Of a stretch of DNA of 64,000 bases, positions 1-17,427 are shown in pieces; position 1 is the stretch's first letter; each line of letters begins with the position of its first letter. The stretch spans positions 62,001 to 126,000 of the forward strand of contig NZ_RSFE01000001.1 in the NCBI RefSeq assembly GCF_004025325.1. Direction: 5' to 3'. The position numbers and the translations under genes were made by a program. Source of the stretch: Pseudidiomarina gelatinasegens. GTDB lineage: Bacteria; Pseudomonadota; Gammaproteobacteria; Enterobacterales; Alteromonadaceae. Below the pieces are notes generated by a model. That model did not search any database and had not been told where the DNA came from. It saw nothing but the letters and a program-made list of their open reading frames with translations.

Positions 1-863
1 CGCTTTTCGTCTTCCGCTTGTTGAATACGGGCCTGCAATACAGACATCGCCTTGGCGCGGTTCTTATGCTGAGAGCGTTCGTCTTGGCACTCCACCACAA
101 AACCGGTCGGAATGTGAGTAATTCGAATTGCGGAATCAGTTCGGTTAACGTGCTGACCACCGGCTCCGGATGCGCGATAGGTATCAACTCGCAAATCAGC
201 CGGGTTTATTTCAATTGCTTCTGCTTCGGGTATCTCAGGCAATACGGCCACGGTGCAGGCTGATGTATGCACACGCCCTTGCGACTCGGTTTCTGGTACC
301 CGTTGTACACGGTGGCCACCCGATTCAAATTTTAATCGTCCGTAAGCGCCATCACCAGACACGTGGGCAATGACTTCTTTGTAGCCACCATGCTCACCTT
401 CACTTGCGCTGACAATGCTAACCTTCCAGCCATGTTGTTCGCCGTAGCGGCTATACATGCGGAATAAATCGCCAGCAAAAATGGCGGCTTCATCGCCACC
501 CGCACCGGCGCGTATTTCCAGATAACACGGGCGGTCATCGTTTGGATCTTTCGGCAGCAATAGAATCTGCAGTTCTTGCTCAAGTTGTTCTTGCTTCGCT
601 TGCGCTTCGTCTAATTCTGCTTTAGCCATTTCGCGCATTTCAGCGTCGTCTTCTTGCATCATTTCGTTAGCAGCCGCTTCGTCAGCCTGCGCCTGCTGAT
701 AGCTGGTAAAACACTTCACCAGTTCTTCGAGTTGCGAATACTCGCGCGACAACCCACGAAACTTATCTTGATCGCCAATTACACCAGGGTCACTCAATAA
801 GTGCTGAACTTCTTCATAACGTTCTAATAAAGCTTCTAATTTTCGAATAATCGAAGGATTCAT
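1..863 (-). CDS. prfA: Peptide chain release factor 1, 3' end outside window
   Basis: Class I release factor that reads UAA and UAG stop codons on the ribosome and triggers hydrolysis of the peptidyl-tRNA ester bond. About 287 codons are visible; E. coli RF1 has 360 residues, so the C-terminal fifth lies beyond base 1. The catalytic GGQ motif is at residues 235-237 (context [14 protein letters not shown]). The stop-recognition PxT motif is present as PET in [13 protein letters not shown], and the GAGGDEAA segment of the family is intact. An ATG at 866 precedes the chosen ATG at 863, and the sequence [12 protein letters not shown] matches the E. coli start best. It lies 15 bases after hemA, the classic hemA-prfA operon. 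Confidence 0.95.
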
Positions 864-7181: not shown

Positions 7182-7230
7182 GATATTAGATATTAGATAT
7201 TAGATATTAGATATTAGATATTAGATATTG
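7182..7230 (+). repeat. Heptamer tandem repeat (GATATTA)7
   Basis: Six perfect GATATTA units (7182-7223) plus a seventh variant GATATTG (7224-7230), lying 11 bases after the ychF stop and overlapping the last codons of the convergent sulfurtransferase gene. Seven bases is not a multiple of three, so unit gain or loss would change the reading frame of that gene's tail. The same unit occurs at 42078-42111 and 44311-44409. Confidence 0.95.
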
Positions 7231-8078
7231 GGTCGATGGGGAGCTGCGGATTAGCGCCCCATTCGGACCATGATCCATCATAAAGCTGCACTTCACTGAA
7301 GCCCGCAATGCGCGCCGCAACCAACAAAATACACGCAGTAATACCTGAACCACAGGTTAAAACCAAATGTGGGGATTTTGGGCCAACGAGCGACACAAAC
7401 ATATCTTCGAGCTCCGCCGACTTTTTAAATCTGTTGTCATCCAGCACATCAAGAAATGGTAGATTAAACGACCCACGAATATGACCACTGCGCATTCCTT
7501 TGTGCGGCTCTTCTTTTTGGCCCAAATAACGCTCGCGTGAACGTGCATCGATAATGCTGCTAGCCCCGCTTTGCGTTGCTGCTAAAACTTGTTTGGCCGT
7601 AACCAACCATTCTTTCTCAAACTTTGCGACAAAGTTTCCACGGGCCGATTTCGGCCGTGCATGTTCGGTATCCGCAGGATAGCTGTCCGCAAGCCATTGC
7701 GGTAATCCACCGTCCAAAATATAAACCTGTTTAAAGCCCATCGATTTGAAGATCAACCCAAGCGCGCGGCGACGAGTAAATACCCTGATTATCGTAAAGC
7801 ACCAAGGTGTCGTCTTTATTAATGCCTAAAGTTTGTGTTGCTAAAGTAACCTGCTCAGCCGTCGGAAATGTATTCGGCAAACTCGTGCTGGTATCTGTAA
7901 AATTTTTCTCTAAAGCCATGTCCAGCGAATTTGGTATGACAGTGAGTTCGTTGTATTCAAGGGGAGTACGCCCCGCAACTTTTTTCATGCTTGCATCAAG
8001 CACATGCAAATTAGGTTGCGATTTATGTTCAGCCAACCACTTGGTTGTTACTAGACACGATTTATCTGACGTACTCAT
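7214..8078 (-). pseudogene. sseA: 3-mercaptopyruvate sulfurtransferase, frameshifted
   Basis: Two-domain rhodanese that would transfer sulfur from 3-mercaptopyruvate to thiols or cyanide. The N-terminal part (8078 down) reads normally through LYDNQGIYSSPRAW and then hits TAA at 7731-7733. The C-terminal part continues in the next frame from about 7756 as IFKSMGFKQVYILDGG. Removing one G from the GGG at 7757-7759 (minus strand) joins them into about 287 residues, close to E. coli SseA (281). The active-site loop CGSGITA, typical of mercaptopyruvate rather than thiosulfate enzymes, is intact in the second half. The last residues and the stop codon come from the heptamer repeat. It may be a true mutation or a base error. 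Confidence 0.85.
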
Positions 8079-8150: not shown

Positions 8151-9527
8151 TCATTGATAACCAATAGAAACCGCAATCAACATCGCTATCGCACAAGCAA
8201 AAATAAGCTTCAGCATCAGCGGCGCTACAAACTTAAACCAACGTTCGTAAGGCACACCTGCTAAGCCTAATATGCCCATCAACACTGGGTTGGTGGGTAC
8301 AATCATATTCATCAAGCCGTCGCCCATTTGAAACGCTAACACAGCTATTTGGCGACCAATACCGGCGGTGTCTGCAATCGGAACCATAATCGGCATGGTC
8401 ACAAACGCCTGACCACTGCCCGACGGAATAAACAGGTTCAACAAGCTCTGGATAATTAACATGCTAACCGCACCAAAATGCGCACCAAAAGCCTCAACTG
8501 GCATTGCCAGATAGTAAATAACGGTGTCGAGTACTTGCCCATGCTCCATAATCATTGCAATTGAGCGCGCGAAACCAATCAGTAGCGCAGTTGCAGTTAG
8601 CTCCGCGGCCCCTTCAATAAACTTATTGGCCGCATCGTTGGCACCCATGTGTGCGACCAAAGCCGCAAATAAACCAAACCCAAGAAACAGTGCACTGAGT
8701 TCAACAAGGTACCAACCGTGTTCTTTGATGCCCCACACCAATAGCCCAAGCACCACGACGAAGCCCATCAAAATAATTTTATGGCGTCCTGTAAGTGCTG
8801 GGTAGTCCTCGGCATCAGTGCTTTTAGCAGGAGTTATATCAGCCAGTAGCGAATTATTTGGGTCTGCAGCCACACGCTTCGCATAGCGGTACACATGGTG
8901 AAAACCAATGGCGAATAACACCGGCCACAGTGCAAGGCGATACCATAAGCCAGAAGCTGGCGGTACTTCAGCAATGGCTTGTGCGATTAACAGCGTAAAC
9001 GGGTTGAACAATGACAAGCCGTAACCAATGCCATAGCCAACAATTAAAATTCCCATAGCGGTGATGCCATCGAGCTTTAATGCGCGGCACAATGCCACCA
9101 GCATGGCTACAAATATGAGATATTCTTCGGCTACCCCAATCAAGGCCGAAAAAATACCGAAGGTCAGCATACCGCCCAAAATGAGCCAACCGGTTTTATC
9201 TGCAAACTTTTTCAGGAGCAAGCCAATCACCGCATCAAGCATTCCTGTCGCGCGCAAGATGCCCATAACACCGCCTATCAACAAGACAAAGAAAATCACG
9301 CCTTGCGCATCACCCAGTGCTTGTGGAATAACAGTAAACAGTGTCAGGGGCGACAGTATGGGTTGCTCTGCTAGCACGCTATAGGTGCCAGGCTGCACTA
9401 CCGTTTGCCCAATGTCATTTACGCTGCGTTCAAATTCTCCAGCTGGAATAACCCAAGTCAGCACCAGTGCGGCAACCATCATGTACATCATGAGAACTAA
9501 GGTGTGCGGTATTTTTATTTTTATCAT
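8151..9527 (-). CDS. YfcC-family carrier (basic amino acid / C4-dicarboxylate type)
   Basis: Polytopic inner-membrane protein of 458 residues with about 12 hydrophobic segments, beginning IKIPHTLVLMMYMMVAALVLTW. The opening IPHTLVLM, the WVIPAGEFER loop after the first helix and the repeated glycine-rich segments (IGGVMGILRATGMLD, IVGYGIGYGLSLFNPFT, IIQSLLNLFIPSGSGQAF) are characteristic of YfcC, a branch of the ion transporter superfamily with ArcD and DcuC. The substrate cannot be read from sequence. It lies 28 bases after the haemoglobin gene on the same strand, so it could be a fifth cistron of that operon or separately transcribed. Confidence 0.85.
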   Translation of the reverse strand: MIKIKIPHTLVLMMYMMVAALVLTWVIPAGEFERSVNDIGQTVVQPGTYSVLAEQPILSPLTLFTVIPQALGDAQGVIFFVLLIGGVMGILRATGMLDAVIGLLLKKFADKTGWLILGGMLTFGIFSALIGVAEEYLIFVAMLVALCRALKLDGITAMGILIVGYGIGYGLSLFNPFTLLIAQAIAEVPPASGLWYRLALWPVLFAIGFHHVYRYAKRVAADPNNSLLADITPAKSTDAEDYPALTGRHKIILMGFVVVLGLLVWGIKEHGWYLVELSALFLGFGLFAALVAHMGANDAANKFIEGAAELTATALLIGFARSIAMIMEHGQVLDTVIYYLAMPVEAFGAHFGAVSMLIIQSLLNLFIPSGSGQAFVTMPIMVPIADTAGIGRQIAVLAFQMGDGLMNMIVPTNPVLMGILGLAGVPYERWFKFVAPLMLKLIFACAIAMLIAVSIGYQ

Positions 9528-9555: not shown

Positions 9556-9975
9556 TTATAAATGAATCACTTCCTTATGCATTGCAGCGAGTATAGCAAG
9601 TAATCTGTTTTGTGCGCTAACAGGTATCTGTTCGGATTCCATGGCCTGTATCAAATCTTCCACCAGCGCATTAAATTCCGCGCGGGTAATATTCATTCCA
9701 AGGTGTACTTCTGGCATCGGCTTACCGGTGTATTCGCAAGGCCCTGCACTTAATTCACAGATGTGCTCGGTCAGCATTTTATGGAAGCGATCAATATCGA
9801 CATTTTCGAAGTGATGAATAATACGGTCGTCTTCAGCAATTTCGAGTATGAAGGTCTCCATTAATTTGCTGATGCCTTCATATTCACCCAATTCTTGATA
9901 CAGCGAGCCCTTGTCCGCCTGTGCCAGCGGCGTCATTAACAATCCAAGAGCCAGTATTGCTGTTCGTAACATCAT
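9556..9975 (-). CDS. Exported group 1 truncated haemoglobin
   Basis: Small 2-on-2 globin of 139 residues with an N-terminal signal peptide (residues 1-20, LALGLLMTPLAQA cut before DKG), so it should act in the periplasm; most truncated globins are cytoplasmic. The core matches group 1: SLYQELGEYEGISKLME, the LSAGPCEYTGKPM loop, and proximal haem ligand His91 in PEVHLGM. The ATG at 9975 (or the next codon) has AAGGGG six bases upstream; that ribosome binding site overlaps the end of the DUF3034 gene, indicating translational coupling. It is the last gene of a four-gene operon. Possible roles are oxygen, NO or peroxide binding; none is shown. Confidence 0.88.
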   Translation of the reverse strand: MMLRTAILALGLLMTPLAQADKGSLYQELGEYEGISKLMETFILEIAEDDRIIHHFENVDIDRFHKMLTEHICELSAGPCEYTGKPMPEVHLGMNITRAEFNALVEDLIQAMESEQIPVSAQNRLLAILAAMHKEVIHL

Positions 9976-9985
9976 GATGCGCCCC

Positions 9986-10837
9986 TTAGAATGTGACTTG
10001 AATACTGCCGTACATACCGGTCTGGTTATCAGCACCGGCAATCGACTTCAAATTGGTGTAAGCCAAGGCTACCGCAACCCGCTTATTCGGAAACCACCCG
10101 ATAAACACATCATGCCAATCATGCTCTTCGGCGAAGCTAAGGTTACTCGGTTTTTGGCGGTACTCCACGCCCACAATCCAATGGCGATTCACAAACATAC
10201 CCACGGAAGCTTCCGCTTGTAGTTTATAACTGTCGTTGCGATCACCACCAAAGCCTAGCAGCCCCATTTCATTGGCTTTGGTAGCCCGCAACGTCAAATT
10301 AACCAGCCAGGTTCTATGCCACGGCCCATCCAACCAAGCTTTGGCTGCGCTGAAGTACACATCAGTGCCGCTGTCATCGCGCGCACCAACAGCTTCTGGT
10401 AACGCGAAAGTTTTATTGCGTTTGTGCTGCAAGCCAATACTCAGTTGCGGTTCTTGGCCATAAACCAAGTCGCCATAAAGATGATATTTAACCCCGTAGA
10501 TATCTTGTTTAAGTTCACCGCCCAAACTCACCAAATCAAACTGTTGCCGGGCATAACTGAATTCCCAGCGATTGTCGTAGTTTAACGTGAGTGCACTGAC
10601 ACCGAGTTCATAGTCTTCAACGTTGGCATAATTGTAAGCAACAGTTCCGCCCCACTGCCCCTCTTCGGCATAACTAGAAAGCGTCGCCCAAGGCACTAAA
10701 CCGCCACCCCCACTGCCCTCCACACTGGTTAACCCGCCAGTTGCCAATAGCTTGCCAAAGTCTGCAGCTGCGGGGCCAGATGCAATTACCGCTATGGTTA
10801 GCGTAAACGACTTGACCAGCATTCTGCTAAGGCTCAT
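9986..10837 (-). CDS. DUF3034-like outer-membrane beta-barrel protein
   Basis: Uncharacterised exported protein, 283 residues. A signal peptide (about residues 1-25, ending ASGPAAA) precedes the family-like opening FGKLLATGGLTSVEGSGGGG followed by LVPWA. The rest alternates polar and hydrophobic strands (WEFSYARQQFDLVSL, LSIGLQHKRN, WLVNLTLRAT) and ends in a C-terminal phenylalanine (YGSIQVTF), the usual outer-membrane barrel signature. The ATG at 10837 overlaps the TGA of the GGDEF/EAL gene (ATGA) and has AAGGAG seven bases upstream, so this start is firm. The DUF3034 call is from memory of the family, not a search. Confidence 0.75.
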   Translation of the reverse strand: MSLSRMLVKSFTLTIAVIASGPAAADFGKLLATGGLTSVEGSGGGGLVPWATLSSYAEEGQWGGTVAYNYANVEDYELGVSALTLNYDNRWEFSYARQQFDLVSLGGELKQDIYGVKYHLYGDLVYGQEPQLSIGLQHKRNKTFALPEAVGARDDSGTDVYFSAAKAWLDGPWHRTWLVNLTLRATKANEMGLLGFGGDRNDSYKLQAEASVGMFVNRHWIVGVEYRQKPSNLSFAEEHDWHDVFIGWFPNKRVAVALAYTNLKSIAGADNQTGMYGSIQVTF

Positions 10838-13134
10838 GGTGAAACTCCTTGATAATCGCGCAGCCACTGTTCGAACTGGGTCGCTGCTAATGGTCGACTA
10901 AAATAATAGCCTTGTACCGTATCACACCCCAACTGCTGCAGAATCTGCCATGCGGATTCCTCTTCGATGCCCTCGGCAACCGTGGTTAATTGCAATTCAT
11001 GCGCCAGCGCCAAGGTTGAGCGCACAATGGTTAAGTCGGCATGACTGTTGGCAATATCTTGTATGAAAGAACGGTCCAGTTTCAGTTCATCAACCGGTAA
11101 ACGTTTCAGCTGAGCCAACGAAGCATAGCCCGTACCGTAATCATCGATAGCAATTTTAAAACCGGCCTCGCGCAGTTGGGTCAGCCGTTTAATCGCTTGT
11201 TCCGGCTCCACCATCACCGCACTTTCCGTTACTTCTAAGGTAATGGATTGTGGCGATAATCCGCGCTTCTGTGCAGCTTCACGCAAAAATTTAACCAAAT
11301 CCGGCCACTGTAAATCCAATGCTGATAAGTTAATGGCCAGCGCCAGTTGCAGTCCCTGTTCATGCCACAACTGCAATTGATCGAACGCCGCCGTGCAAAC
11401 CCAGCGAGTCAACCGATTAATTTCACCGGTTTGTTCCGCCAATGGGATGAATTCGTCCGGCCGCACCACGCCGAGGTGTTCATCACGCCAGCGCAGCAGC
11501 GCCTCCACACCCAATATACGGCCGTCATTGCAGTTAACCTTGGGTTGGTAGTGCAACTGCAAACGTTGTTCGCGTACCGCGCTTGGCAGTGCCTGCACAA
11601 TTTGCAAACGACGTAAGTGCTGTTCGTCCATGCCATGTTCGTAGGCCACCGCAAAAGCATTGCGTTGCTTTGCTTGGCGCGCGCAAATTTGAGCACGGCG
11701 CAAAATACTATCGGCGTCGTCGCCAATGTTCGGAAAGGTTAAATAGCCGGCACGAAATTCAAGTAAGTAACTGGTTTCATCAAGCCACCAAGGCTGCGAA
11801 AGTGTTTGTTCAACGTCGCGAAGCAACGCCTTGGTTTGCGGTTCCGATTGGCCTTCACCAATTAATACAAATTCATCGCCCGCCAAGCGACCAATCCACC
11901 ACTGTTCGGGAGCACTGTCGCGTAAGCGCTGCGAAATCATTTGCAATAATCGGTCGCCAACTTGTTGACCAAAACGGTCATTCACTTCACCAAAGCGCGC
12001 AACATTTAACAACACCACGTAACCGTTTTGCTTGGACTGAATGGCTCGTGATAAATAGTCCCGCAAAGAAACGCGGTTGGGCAGTCCGGTTAACAAGTCA
12101 TGCTGCAGTTGATACATAATTTGCTGCTCACGCTGCGAAATGCCTTGTCGCATGGTTTCAAACGCTGCGCCTAAAGCGCCAAATTCATCATTGCGTTGCA
12201 ATGTAATCGGTTGATTATAATCACCGGCCCCAAGCTGCTCGGCTGCGCGGGTCAAACTTGCCACAGGCTGGTTGATTTTTCGAGCGGTGATCATTGCTAA
12301 CAGGACGGCAAATATCAGCGTTGCCAACGCAATGACCAAGTATTGTTGTTGCAACGTGACAAATTCACTGGTTGCTGCAAATTCGTCGGTACTGAACAGA
12401 ATGACCAAATTTGGGTCGTTACTCAGAGCATATTGAATATCATTAAAACCCGAAACATTGGCCGCTAAATTTAGATTATCCAATGCCGTATTTAGCGCTA
12501 TTGCGGGATCTTCGATCTGCGCAAGTATTTCCTCATCAAGGCTACTCGCAAATACGTTGCGCTGCTGGCGGTTCATAAAAGTGATATCAGCATGTGTTAA
12601 CTGGCGCATTAACACCGCGAAATCATCGTCCACACCGAAACCCAACGTTGCCCAAGCTATTAAATCGGGGGCGCGAACTGGCACCGTAACAATTTGGAAA
12701 ATTTCATCGTCAACCAACACCAACTGCGCGGCCGATTTGCCTGCGGTAAGGTTCTCGATACTGGGTAAAAGTTGGCTGGTGTGCGTTGCTGCTATTTCTT
12801 CGCCGTTGGGTGACTGCAGCACAATAAGGTCGGTACCAATGCGCTCGCCATGGTTAATCAAGGCAGAAATAATTGTATTTTCGTCGCCACTGGCAACCGC
12901 CTCACGAAAACCAAAATCGGTGGTTAATACTTCCGCAGCCTGTTGCAGCTGTTGAGCGCGCACGTCCATCAACTCGGCAAACACCCGCTCACTTACTTCC
13001 AGTTCACGTTCCAGTGTACGTTCGGATTGTTGTGACGTGGCTAACCACACTGCTACCAGCGAGATAATTAACACCGCGCCTGCCAGCGTCATAAAACTTA
13101 CCAATAATCGTGACCGAAAACTTTTTATCATCAT
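10834..13134 (-). CDS. Membrane GGDEF/EAL protein, likely c-di-GMP phosphodiesterase
   Basis: 766 residues. One transmembrane helix (about 10-32), a periplasmic sensor region (33-262) resembling double-Cache domains, a second helix (264-284), HAMP (285-335), GGDEF (345-505) and EAL (510-760). The EAL residues look intact: E544-A-L, the INLSA and EVTES strands, DDYGTGY at 664-670, Lys685 and Glu721. The GGDEF half looks degenerate: the signature is AGDEF (418-422), the metal-binding DxD is NVA (377-379), and no RxxD inhibitory site is visible. So I infer c-di-GMP breakdown, with the GGDEF domain perhaps a GTP-sensing regulator. Second gene of the operon; the stop of the cupredoxin-like gene lies 1 base upstream. 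Confidence 0.88.
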   Translation of the reverse strand: MMIKSFRSRLLVSFMTLAGAVLIISLVAVWLATSQQSERTLERELEVSERVFAELMDVRAQQLQQAAEVLTTDFGFREAVASGDENTIISALINHGERIGTDLIVLQSPNGEEIAATHTSQLLPSIENLTAGKSAAQLVLVDDEIFQIVTVPVRAPDLIAWATLGFGVDDDFAVLMRQLTHADITFMNRQQRNVFASSLDEEILAQIEDPAIALNTALDNLNLAANVSGFNDIQYALSNDPNLVILFSTDEFAATSEFVTLQQQYLVIALATLIFAVLLAMITARKINQPVASLTRAAEQLGAGDYNQPITLQRNDEFGALGAAFETMRQGISQREQQIMYQLQHDLLTGLPNRVSLRDYLSRAIQSKQNGYVVLLNVARFGEVNDRFGQQVGDRLLQMISQRLRDSAPEQWWIGRLAGDEFVLIGEGQSEPQTKALLRDVEQTLSQPWWLDETSYLLEFRAGYLTFPNIGDDADSILRRAQICARQAKQRNAFAVAYEHGMDEQHLRRLQIVQALPSAVREQRLQLHYQPKVNCNDGRILGVEALLRWRDEHLGVVRPDEFIPLAEQTGEINRLTRWVCTAAFDQLQLWHEQGLQLALAINLSALDLQWPDLVKFLREAAQKRGLSPQSITLEVTESAVMVEPEQAIKRLTQLREAGFKIAIDDYGTGYASLAQLKRLPVDELKLDRSFIQDIANSHADLTIVRSTLALAHELQLTTVAEGIEEESAWQILQQLGCDTVQGYYFSRPLAATQFEQWLRDYQGVSP

Positions 13135-13135
13135 T

Positions 13136-13816
13136 TTAGTTATTATTTTTTCGACGATTAAATCGTTGCTGTAACGCCGATGGTGGCGGTGGGTTTTGTG
13201 CTTGTGGCAGTACCGGTAAATTGACCGTCAGGTTCGTTTCAGCGTTCACTACCTCAACCACCAATTCGTCAGTAATGGTGTCGGTTAAGCCTGGGTACCA
13301 AACATGGAACTGAGACACCCCGTTCGGTAACTCAGCCTGCCCAGCTGCATTCGTTTGCACACTATAACCGTGCGGACTGACATAAATATAGGCTTTCATG
13401 TGGTCGTGTATGTTGCACCCCAGCACCACAATACCCGGCTCATCAAAGCGTAGTTCAGGTGCTTGTTGATTGCTATACAGCGGCAGCTCGAAGGGTTTGG
13501 TCGGTGAGAATGAGTAAACTTGATGGCGAATGTTGTCGCTATTAGGGAAGCTCACTGAACTACCTTGCGACACGTTAAGCACAAAGGGCGAAAACAGTTT
13601 GTCGACTTGATCCATCACGGCATCAGTCACTATTGAATTTTCATTTGTCGCATCAGCAACGCTCACAATGGCGTGCGGCAGCGGCTTACCATTGGCATCC
13701 AGTACAGTTACCGTTAGCGAAACTTGCGCCTGAGCGGCACTCGTTGGGCTGCATAGAACAGCAAAAGCTGCAATGAATGCAGTAAAAAACACCGCAGGAA
13801 TTTGAAACTTGGTCAT
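13136..13816 (-). CDS. Exported cupredoxin-like protein ('methylamine utilization' type)
   Basis: 226-residue secreted protein with a signal peptide (1-30, cut after SPTSAAQA). The central part is a cupredoxin fold with a plausible type 1 copper site: His98 (NIRHQVYSF), Cys134, His137 and Met140 (GCNIHDHM). It is preceded by a short carboxypeptidase-regulatory-like segment (LDANGKPLPHAIVSV), and the tail is proline- and arginine-rich (QNPPPPSALQQRFNRRKNNN). Such proteins are often labelled methylamine utilization protein, but no methylamine dehydrogenase genes are present. First gene of the operon; the 190-base gap to fumC upstream must hold its promoter. Confidence 0.8.
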   Translation of the reverse strand: MTKFQIPAVFFTAFIAAFAVLCSPTSAAQAQVSLTVTVLDANGKPLPHAIVSVADATNENSIVTDAVMDQVDKLFSPFVLNVSQGSSVSFPNSDNIRHQVYSFSPTKPFELPLYSNQQAPELRFDEPGIVVLGCNIHDHMKAYIYVSPHGYSVQTNAAGQAELPNGVSQFHVWYPGLTDTITDELVVEVVNAETNLTVNLPVLPQAQNPPPPSALQQRFNRRKNNN

Positions 13817-14006: not shown

Positions 14007-15368
14007 ATGGCAACACGAATAGAAACCGATAGCATGGGTGATATTGAAGTACCCGAACAGGCGCTGTGGCGCGCACAAACGGAGCGCGCCCGACAAAACT
14101 TTCAACTCAGCGCGTTACGTTTCCCACCCCAATTTATTCATGCTCTAGCCCACATTAAGGCTGCAGCGGCAGCGGCAAATGCCGAAGCGGATATAATCAG
14201 TAATGAACAGGCGCAAGCGATCACTAAAGCCGTTGAATTAATATTAGACGGTAAAGCCGACGATGCCTTTCCGCTGGATATATTTCAAACCGGCTCTGGC
14301 ACCAGCACCAATATGAATATGAATGAAGTGCTGGCCAGTTTAGCCTTGCGCGAGCATGCTGTTGAGGTTCACCCGAATGACCATGTCAACGCAAGTCAAA
14401 GCAGTAACGACGTGATTCCAACAGCTATCTTAGTTAGCAGTGCCATCGCGCTCAAAACGGATTTAATGCCCGCGTTAGCACATTTACGCCAAACCATAGC
14501 GACCAAAGCCGATACCTTAACCGACACCATCAAAACTGGGCGTACCCACCTCATGGATGCAATGCCATTGAGTATGGCTCAGGAGTTATCGGCGTGGGCC
14601 AGCCAGGTTGCCAATGTTGAACGCGCCCTAACCGATGGTTTGGCGCAGATAGCCGAATTACCGCAAGGTGGCACCGCAATTGGCTCCGGCATTAATGCAC
14701 CCGATAACTTCGGCGAACGCTTCTGTCATTTTTTGAGTCAACGCACCGCACAACAATTTACAGCCGCCGCGAATCCGTTTGCAGGCATTTCGGGGCAAGA
14801 GGTGAATTTATTACTCAGTGGTCAACTCAATGCTTTGGCGACAGTGTTGCTGAAAATCAGCAACGATTTACGTTGGATGAATAGCGGCCCCTTGGCAGGC
14901 CTTGGCGAAATAAGCCTTAAAGCTTTGCAGCCAGGCAGCAGTATTATGCCCGGCAAAGTTAACCCTGTGATTCCTGAAGCAGTCGCAATGATCGCCGCAC
15001 AAGTAGCAGGAAATCATCAAACCATTTCAGTCAGTGCGCAGCAAGGCAACTTTCAGTTAAATGTGATGCTGCCCGTTATTGCGTACAACCAATTACAGAG
15101 CATCGAATTACTCAGCAATGCAGCGCGGGCTTTGGCTGACCAAGCCATCGCTGATTTCACTGTAAATCACGAGCGAATTGATGAAGCGCTGGCGCGCAAT
15201 CCGATTTTAGTGACTGCATTGAACCGTAAAATTGGTTACAACAAAGCCGCCCAAATCGCCAAACAAGCTTATCAACAACAACGTCCAATTCTCGACGTGG
15301 CAACAGAGATGACAGACCTGTCACAAGAAGAATTGGCGCAGTTGTTGAATCCGAAAAATTTAATTTAG
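14007..15368 (+). CDS. fumC: Fumarate hydratase class II
   Basis: Iron-independent fumarase interconverting fumarate and L-malate in the TCA cycle; homotetramer. 453 residues. The superfamily signature GSSIMPGKVNP holds the flexible catalytic serine loop; TGSGTSTNMNMNEV, HPNDHVNASQSSNDVIPTA and GRTHLMDAMPL are the other conserved regions, with the catalytic His in the last. Start ATG at 14007 has AAGGAG upstream. The family also includes aspartase, but the HVNASQSSNDV and TGSGTSTNMN pattern and length suit FumC. The SDR gene follows 15 bases later, so the two may be co-transcribed. Confidence 0.93.
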   Translation: MATRIETDSMGDIEVPEQALWRAQTERARQNFQLSALRFPPQFIHALAHIKAAAAAANAEADIISNEQAQAITKAVELILDGKADDAFPLDIFQTGSGTSTNMNMNEVLASLALREHAVEVHPNDHVNASQSSNDVIPTAILVSSAIALKTDLMPALAHLRQTIATKADTLTDTIKTGRTHLMDAMPLSMAQELSAWASQVANVERALTDGLAQIAELPQGGTAIGSGINAPDNFGERFCHFLSQRTAQQFTAAANPFAGISGQEVNLLLSGQLNALATVLLKISNDLRWMNSGPLAGLGEISLKALQPGSSIMPGKVNPVIPEAVAMIAAQVAGNHQTISVSAQQGNFQLNVMLPVIAYNQLQSIELLSNAARALADQAIADFTVNHERIDEALARNPILVTALNRKIGYNKAAQIAKQAYQQQRPILDVATEMTDLSQEELAQLLNPKNLI

Positions 15369-16934: not shown

Positions 16935-17011
16935 GGCTACGTAGCTCAGCTGGTTAGAGCACAGCACTCATAATGCTGGGGTCGCAAGTTCGAATCTCGC
17001 CGTAGCCACCA
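16935..17011 (+). tRNA. metT: tRNA-Met (CAT), elongator
   Basis: 77 bases including encoded CCA. Cloverleaf arms are complete; anticodon loop CTCATAA gives CAT. The sequence is very close to E. coli elongator metT (opening GGCTACGTAGCTCAG, ending CGTAGCC-A-CCA), which separates it from tRNA-Ile2 and initiator tRNA. First member of the met-leu-gln-gln-leu operon that mirrors the E. coli metT-leuW-glnUW cluster. Confidence 0.95.
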
Positions 17012-17027
17012 ATCAAATCCCTTTTGG

Positions 17028-17112
17028 GCGGACGTGGTGGAATTGGTAGACACGCTGGATTTAGGTTCCAGTGCCTCACGGCGTGAGAGTTCAAGTCTCT
17101 CCGTCCGCACCA
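17028..17112 (+). tRNA. leuW: tRNA-Leu (TAG)
   Basis: 85 bases with CCA, class II tRNA with a long variable arm (CCTCACGGCGTGAG region). Anticodon stem CTGGA/TCCAG encloses TTTAGGT, anticodon TAG. Second gene of the tRNA operon, 16 bases after tRNA-Met, matching the place of leuW in E. coli. Confidence 0.95.
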
Positions 17113-17141
17113 ACTCAAACTGTCAGGCGGTATACACAAGT

Positions 17142-17216
17142 TGGGGTATAGCCAAGCGGTAAGGCAGCGGGTTTTGATCCCGCCATTCCCAGGTTCAAAT
17201 CCTGGTACCCCAGCCA
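17142..17216 (+). tRNA. glnU: tRNA-Gln (TTG), copy 1
   Basis: 75 bases with CCA; anticodon loop TTTTGAT gives TTG, reading CAA and CAG by wobble. Identical to the copy at 17248-17322, a recent tandem duplication or homogenised pair, as in the E. coli glnUW cluster. Confidence 0.95.
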
Positions 17217-17247
17217 ATCGCCCTTCTCTTCTTGATGCACCCAGTGT

Positions 17248-17322
17248 TGGGGTATAGCCAAGCGGTAAGGCAGCGGGTTTTGATCCCGCCATTCCCAGGT
17301 TCAAATCCTGGTACCCCAGCCA
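17248..17322 (+). tRNA. glnW: tRNA-Gln (TTG), copy 2
   Basis: Identical in all 75 bases to the preceding tRNA-Gln, separated by a 31-base spacer whose sequence is not repeated. No separate CTG-anticodon glutamine tRNA is seen here, so these two may raise UUG-tRNA dosage. Confidence 0.95.
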
Positions 17323-17340
17323 TTTTTTCCCCTGTTTGTT

Positions 17341-17427
17341 GCGGGGGTGGCGGAATTGGTAGACGCGCTAGCTTCAGGTGCTAGTGAGCTAACGCTCGTG
17401 GGGGTTCAAGTCCCCCCCTCCGCACCA
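17341..17427 (+). tRNA. tRNA-Leu (CAG)
   Basis: 87 bases with CCA, long variable arm (GAGCTAACGCTC). The anticodon region GCTAGC-TTCAGGT gives CAG, similar to E. coli leuT/leuQ-type CUG-reading leucine tRNA. Its encoded CCA overlaps a CACCAC-TTCG-GTGGTG hairpin (17423-17438) that could block 3' exonucleases or mark the operon end; no T-run follows. Confidence 0.95.

Follow-up and report, generated by a model that had tools for sequence, protein, structure and literature searches.

What joins a predicted copper protein, a c-di-GMP receptor, an outer-membrane barrel and an exported haemoglobin in one operon is the question raised by four genes of Pseudidiomarina gelatinasegens. These genes lie in the window analysed here, a stretch of 64,000 nucleotides of contig NZ_RSFE01000001.1. 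Co-inheritance, gene order, conservation of metal ligands and catalytic residues, domain architecture and the variation of outputs and barrels can all be observed directly in the genomes compared. Together they suggest a cupredoxin-coupled receptor, in which the cupredoxin would be the dedicated input of the dCache receptor and the barrel and globin would feed it; this reading is given about even odds.

Organization and conservation of the operon

The four genes claimed in an earlier note on this DNA all exist; they lie on the minus strand, in the order cupredoxin-like protein, dCache_3-HAMP-GGDEF-EAL receptor, DUF3034 protein and group-1 truncated globin (Table 1). The gene coordinates agree with the spacing given in that note: a single base (13135) separates genes 1 and 2, genes 2 and 3 overlap by 4 bases (10834-10837), and genes 3 and 4 stand 10 bases apart (9976-9985). 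The domains dCache_3, HAMP, GGDEF, EAL, DUF3034 and Bac_globin all score above their Pfam cut-offs, and the AlphaFold model of the first protein includes a cupredoxin domain. The three export signals and the two membrane helices of the receptor are predicted by inspection of the sequence. The operon is flanked by a fumarase-type lyase gene (14007-15368, plus strand) and a DcuC-type carrier gene (8151-9527, minus strand). A promoter scan was uninformative (4 found versus 5.9 expected), and terminator-like sites (11 versus 5.6 expected) are located within the genes.

Table 1. Positions in the window of the four genes and of their domains and motifs.
Feature	Position	Strand	Basis or remark
Gene 1, exported cupredoxin-like protein, 226 aa	13136..13816	-	AlphaFold model, pLDDT 90.3; export read from sequence
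Cupredoxin domain, residues 63-148	13373..13630	-	VIA-align on predicted model
Copper ligand H98, outside the loop	13523-13525	-	Ligand conservation in relatives
Type-1 copper ligand loop, C134-x2-H137-x2-M140	13397..13417	-	Ligand conservation in relatives
Gene 2, transmembrane receptor dCache_3-HAMP-GGDEF-EAL, 766 aa	10834..13134	-	Pfam
dCache_3 match, residues 40-197, periplasmic sensor region	12544..13017	-	PF14827, E 6e-11
Ectodomain motif DFGF..AVA..D..TI.SAL.N...RI.AD, residues 73-103	12826..12918	-	Receptor alignment
GGDEF domain, degenerate	11662..12105	-	AGDEF; N377 at metal position
EAL domain, catalytic residues intact	10891..11595	-	Pfam and alignment
Gene 3, DUF3034 outer-membrane beta-barrel, 283 aa, 12 predicted strands	9986..10837	-	PF11231, E 4e-103
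Conserved Gly-rich N-terminal segment of DUF3034, residues 31-51	10685..10747	-	Mostly low model confidence
Gene 4, exported group-1 truncated globin, 139 aa, His91, Cys73/Cys80	9556..9975	-	PF01152, E 6e-13

The operon is real and widely conserved. All four genes occur together in 109 fetched loci (106 distinct, as L141, L136 and L135 duplicate L036, L091 and L093, respectively), and because 99 of these (96 distinct) have the identical order, a chance arrangement is excluded. In the remaining layouts DUF3034 and globin are divergent (7 loci) or the arrangement is different again (3 loci); two of these layouts are found on plasmids of beta- and alphaproteobacteria. The cupredoxin gene is followed by the receptor gene in every one of the four-gene loci. 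Of at least 516 confirmed DUF3034 relatives, the 80 best matches from named genomes were considered, a sample biased to close relatives, and 74 of these loci possess all four genes. The other six comprise three contig ends (L020, L054, L056), a split receptor (L044), a locus from which both cupredoxin and receptor are missing (L028) and one from which the receptor is missing (L047).

Two further regions of the window deserve mention. A rhodanese-type sulfurtransferase gene (7214-8078, minus strand) is split between two frames that overlap (7731-8078 and 7214-7756) and both match PF00581, which indicates a frameshift, a pseudogene or an assembly error. Five tRNA genes (Met, Leu, Gln, Gln, Leu) are clustered at 16935-17427 on the plus strand, and a 116-aa ORF that overlaps them on the opposite strand (16954-17304) is probably spurious.

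Distribution of the four families

The distribution of the four families among 398 genomes of the phylum was surveyed with part-wise profiles, presence being scored at E 1e-20 for the cupredoxin, E 1e-10 for the receptor and DUF3034 and 120 bits for the globin. The cupredoxin is found in 56 genomes and the receptor ectodomain in 54, with 51 in common, and DUF3034 is found in 39 and the globin in 41, with 39 in common. All four parts are present in 37 genomes, cupredoxin and receptor only in 13, and other patterns in 11; globin without DUF3034 occurs in G329 and G501. Fisher tests of co-occurrence were extreme; the profiles were built mostly from cluster members, and both the counts and the tests ignore phylogeny. 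By the family labels of the genome set, DUF3034 extends over 13 families and the cupredoxin over 17. Given these shared-genome counts, the four families are two nested pairs, with cupredoxin and receptor as the core and DUF3034 and globin as the second. A single indivisible four-gene unit is ruled out by the 13 of 398 genomes that possess the first pair only.

In a separate survey of the class with its Pfam model, DUF3034 was detected in 9 of 185 genomes; the 14 control genomes gave no match. The stretches fetched from these nine genomes, that of P. gelatinasegens included, contain the cupredoxin in seven cases, the receptor in six and the globin in six. The globin is missing near DUF3034 in G119 and the receptor in G107, and DUF3034 stands alone in G026 and G156.

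Plasmids offer a further view of the association. While 704 plasmid records match the receptor at E 1e-60, the match spans 80% or more of the receptor in only 12, each of which also possesses the cupredoxin. In one more cupredoxin record, the thirteenth, the annotation shows no more than a short Cache fragment. DUF3034 is found on 13 plasmid records, 12 of which also carry the cupredoxin; one Novosphingobium record has DUF3034 and no cupredoxin match, and one Comamonas record shows the reverse.

Thus, the functional link proposed in the earlier note is well supported by co-occurrence and synteny, and its families, which might have proved to occur apart in most genomes, are mostly together. The co-inheritance of the four as one set stands, but not their indivisibility, as they form two pairs with a variable output and a variable outer-membrane partner. 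The cluster, which the note placed in marine gammaproteobacteria, extends beyond them and is found also in soil and plant Pseudomonas, Xanthomonas, Caballeronia and Novosphingobium.

The cupredoxin

The first protein falls below threshold for every family model that it approaches (CarboxypepD_reg, E 2e-5; amicyanin, E 5e-4), and its assignment is drawn from the predicted model. Re-examined Foldseek matches, a list from which similar families may be missing, place residues 63-148 close to NirK (6hbe, VIA-align Z 12.1), plastocyanin (Z 11.6) and amicyanin (Z about 11). The flanks of this domain (residues about 30-62 and 149-202) form an outer beta-sandwich resembling the SusC NTE domain 9hfj (Z 10.4; 74 residues aligned within the range 30..202, rmsd 2.2), so that in the model the cupredoxin domain is nested within a second beta-sandwich. 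The His, Cys, His and Met of a type-1 copper site are all present within the predicted cupredoxin fold. These four residues are retained by 145 of 146 relatives, or 142 of 143 distinct sequences; the one that deviates (L044) is a gene fragment.

The plasmid relatives of this protein are mostly annotated as 'methylamine utilization protein'. This label was rejected as a functional guide, as the protein scores 20.4 bits against the 110.2 required by the amicyanin equivalog TIGR02657. Methylamine dehydrogenase (PF06433) had no match in genome G000, nor did the control genomes give one. A DUF4394 gene lies immediately upstream of the cupredoxin on a Comamonas plasmid (L101:5976-6926) and in L175:7143-8036.

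Variable partners of the cupredoxin

The neighbourhoods of the cupredoxin were compared in 61 distinct cases, of which 60 were fetched via the cupredoxin alone and the other is L016; the set leaves out the window itself, G407 and matches weaker than G454. A receptor gene is found within 1.5 kb downstream in 47 of the 61, two of them with one intervening gene. The other 14 have no receptor beside the cupredoxin, and five of these possess a porin-like barrel instead. In five genomes (G301, G317, G333, G548, G197) cupredoxin and receptor are both present and apart from each other. The outputs of the 47 adjacent receptors vary: 42 carry EAL, one a Ser/Thr kinase (L185), one a cyclase (L161) and two a hybrid histidine kinase (L187, L188), and the remaining receptor (L142) is truncated where its contig ends. 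The DUF3034 survey contributed another Ser/Thr-kinase receptor (L013). Because the cupredoxin is the usual companion of the ectodomain while the outputs vary, the arrangement fits a dedicated periplasmic input subunit.

Both kinase pairs cluster together in the cupredoxin tree and in the ectodomain tree, which share 31 of 63 splits; this agrees with joint inheritance but also with a shared species history. Between cupredoxin and hybrid histidine kinase lies a CCP/MauG-type di-haem peroxidase gene in L187 (6981-7994) and a 112-aa peroxidase part in L188 (8601-8939). A CCP/MauG-type peroxidase gene also adjoins the cupredoxin at L191:6871-7932. Two candidate pairs were set aside, namely a 4HB chemoreceptor neighbour (L148), dismissed as a Cache partner, and a HAMP hybrid kinase that has a short plastocyanin-like neighbour (L192), excluded as a receptor pair on its weak ectodomain match.

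The outer-membrane partner varies as well. DUF3034 and globin are both present in 32 of the 61 neighbourhoods, and in none is just one of the two found. A porin-like family of about 410 aa (L153:8725-9936, L157:11024-12274, L180:10950-12293 and others) occurs near the cupredoxin in 13 and never together with DUF3034. Sequence comparison of this family with solved structures found none convincing (best E 0.35), and it is called only a likely barrel because its Pfam barrel matches are weak. Ten neighbourhoods have a receptor and neither barrel, and four of the genomes concerned (G435, G399, G562 and G420, the last at L186) carry DUF3034 and globin elsewhere.

One or the other barrel family, never both, is thus present in 45 of the 61 neighbourhoods, as would be expected if the barrel were the primary element of an envelope sensor, sequestering or releasing a periplasmic protein, and the copper were only structural. 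The known model for such a device is YfiBNR (TpbB), an inner-membrane HAMP c-di-GMP enzyme encoded together with its periplasmic and outer-membrane partners, and the layout of the present cluster from outer membrane through periplasm to an inner-membrane c-di-GMP enzyme matches it. An envelope sensor of this type is nevertheless considered quite unlikely, as the strict conservation of the copper ligands and the presence of a haem partner point to redox chemistry and the ten barrel-less neighbourhoods retain the receptor.

The copper itself might instead be the signal. The cupredoxin would then report its apo or loaded state as a measure of copper availability, not a redox state, and the globin would serve a separate purpose. 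The strict conservation of the type-1 ligands (142 of 143 distinct relatives) would be in keeping with such a sensor, as would the 13 of 398 genomes in which cupredoxin and receptor occur without the second pair; the link between DUF3034 and globin and the peroxidase gene would be left unexplained. The flank survey compared 653 ORFs of 72 chosen loci by blastp (E 1e-12, 60% coverage) and not by gene name. At these thresholds, which diverged families could escape, no recurring copper-handling family was seen; recurrence in at least four groups was confined to the porin-like barrel and to Idiomarinaceae synteny, one family of which is also found in an f199 genome. A copper-availability sensor is therefore judged unlikely, and the cupredoxin-coupled receptor remains the preferred reading.

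The receptor

The GGDEF domain of the window's receptor reads AGDEF with Asn at position 377 and thus lacks the signature GG(D/E)EF and metal-binding acids of an active cyclase. Asp occupies position 377 in 24 of 117 distinct cupredoxin-linked receptors; the domain is degenerate in most of them and intact-looking in some (e.g. L012, L015). The EAL residues E544, R548, N602, E634, D664, D665, K685, E721 and Q741, which correspond to the catalytic residues of EAL phosphodiesterases, are found in all 117. The output of the window's receptor should be c-di-GMP hydrolysis. The P. gelatinasegens genome has 15 EAL matches in total, and the receptor is therefore one input among many.

The ectodomain family has no convincing match by sequence among solved structures (best E 0.11). 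Within its conserved motif, N94 is kept in 111 and R98 in all 117 of the distinct cupredoxin-adjacent EAL receptors; L168, whose receptor overlaps a cupredoxin ORF, keeps R98 as well. R98 is also kept in the five receptors distant from a cupredoxin of the same genome, in the second receptor copies of G381, G562 and G399 (3 of 3 checked) and in G294, a genome with no cupredoxin at E 0.001. It is missing from the Ser/Thr-kinase and histidine-kinase receptors. Tandem second dCache-GGDEF-EAL receptors lie beside the Pseudomonas cluster (L063:4364-6787, L066:11573-13915, L090:11444-13837 and others), and R98 is replaced by Gly in 10 of 10 distinct copies of this kind, a loss that may have been one event within Pseudomonas.

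The barrel and the globin

DUF3034 matches PF11231 over profile positions 1-255 with 344.7 bits (cut-off 25), and its model (pLDDT 80.8) is a 12-strand barrel. It resembles two 12-stranded outer-membrane barrels, FapF (5o65, Z 20.1, 213 aligned, 2.7 A) and KdgM (4pr7, Z 18.6, 170 aligned, 2.0 A), with an identity of 10-12%; the likeness is one of fold alone.

The globin scores 49.5 bits against the PF01152 cut-off of 21 and has the proximal His F8, which is present in all 119 loci with a cluster-type globin (3 of these loci being duplicates). The Cys73/Cys80 pair is near-invariant in 19 aligned rows, and 81 of 109 exported globins begin with a lipobox-like start by a loose pattern. Adjacent truncated-globin gene pairs occur in many f194-family genomes (e.g. 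G351:C41:2338-3181). In a family-profile alignment Ile, Phe and Leu occupy the positions of a Tyr and two Gln in a group-1 globin with mutants at these positions (3aq5-3aq9), which are B10, E7 and E11. In PMC11904497, apolar residues at B10, E7 and E11 accompany low O2 affinity, and a Tyr/Gln network there is linked to enzymatic activity. The predicted apolar distal pocket of the cluster globin does not point to any particular gas.

These residues bear on a further explanation, according to which cupredoxin and globin would be an electron-transfer pair that removes NO or peroxide in periplasmic detoxification or respiration, and the EAL protein merely a co-transcribed regulator. The redox proteins are indeed co-encoded, and neighbouring cupredoxin and peroxidase genes occur. 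However, the apolar B10, E7 and E11 are unlike the Tyr/Gln network of PMC11904497, the closest companion of the cupredoxin is the receptor (51 shared genomes) and not the globin (39), and the receptor ectodomain stays constant while the outputs vary. A detoxification unit is accordingly regarded as highly unlikely.

Proposed mechanism and significance

In the cupredoxin-coupled receptor, the exported cupredoxin would be a periplasmic input subunit dedicated to the dCache receptor of the inner membrane. A change at its copper site, in oxidation state (Cu(I) or Cu(II)) or in loading (apo or metal-bound), would alter its docking on the ectodomain, and this change would pass through HAMP to the degenerate GGDEF and intact EAL domains and turn c-di-GMP hydrolysis up or down. 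The DUF3034 barrel and the exported globin would be a second pair feeding the cupredoxin. The former would provide a pore or anchor in the outer membrane, and the latter a haem site that reacts with NO, O2 or peroxide and exchanges electrons with the copper. The most economical signal would be a redox change of the copper driven by the encounter of a haem protein with one of these three molecules. That the proteins touch and pass electrons is inferred, as is what the signal is and in which direction it acts.

More generally, type-1 copper proteins could be redox-readable ligands of Cache receptors with interchangeable outputs (c-di-GMP phosphodiesterase, Ser/Thr kinase, nucleotide cyclase, histidine kinase), their copper being charged by an exported globin or a di-haem peroxidase linked to an outer-membrane barrel. 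Such a new class of sensing is a possible but doubtful extension. For many c-di-GMP enzymes with periplasmic sensors we know of no assigned signal. Here the likely input partner lies next door, is co-inherited and has a predicted copper centre that can be read spectroscopically, and the signal is therefore directly testable. If true, the proposal would suggest a role for DUF3034 and exported truncated globins, and in genera amenable to laboratory work, for example Stutzerimonas, Shewanella and Marinobacter.

Relation to known systems

The portion of the open-access literature consulted, with subscription papers mostly outside it, yielded no recognised account of the cluster or of a cupredoxin partner of a c-di-GMP receptor, and no described function for DUF3034 or exported truncated globins. 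The word DUF3034 occurs in PMC12548924 and PMC4255298, 'periplasmic truncated hemoglobin' in PMC12093952, and truncated hemoglobin together with GGDEF in three papers; a passing mention of the cluster is possible in all of these. The TrHbN of Shewanella benthica, SbHbN (PMC11904497), is like the cluster globin in being a Bac_globin with His F8 and apolar B10, E7 and E11 residues. The cluster globin differs from TrHbN proteins such as SbHbN in its export, its Cys73/Cys80 pair and its genetic tie to DUF3034.

The first protein shares with amicyanin, plastocyanin and pseudoazurin the cupredoxin fold and the ligand set of His and C-x2-H-x2-M. Unlike these proteins it is predicted to be nested in an outer beta-sandwich, is sub-threshold for amicyanin and is linked to a receptor.

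In YfiBNR, YfiN is a cyclase under the control of YfiR, and YfiR is not a cupredoxin. Among the Pfam and NCBIfam matches listed for the four proteins down to E 1, none is to a YfiR or OmpA-type family (for the receptor, among the best 25 of 50 NCBIfam matches). The present cluster differs from YfiBNR in combining a dCache_3 receptor of EAL output with a type-1 copper protein, a beta-barrel and a globin. By analogy of layout, the cluster may thus work like YfiBNR without being a member of that system.
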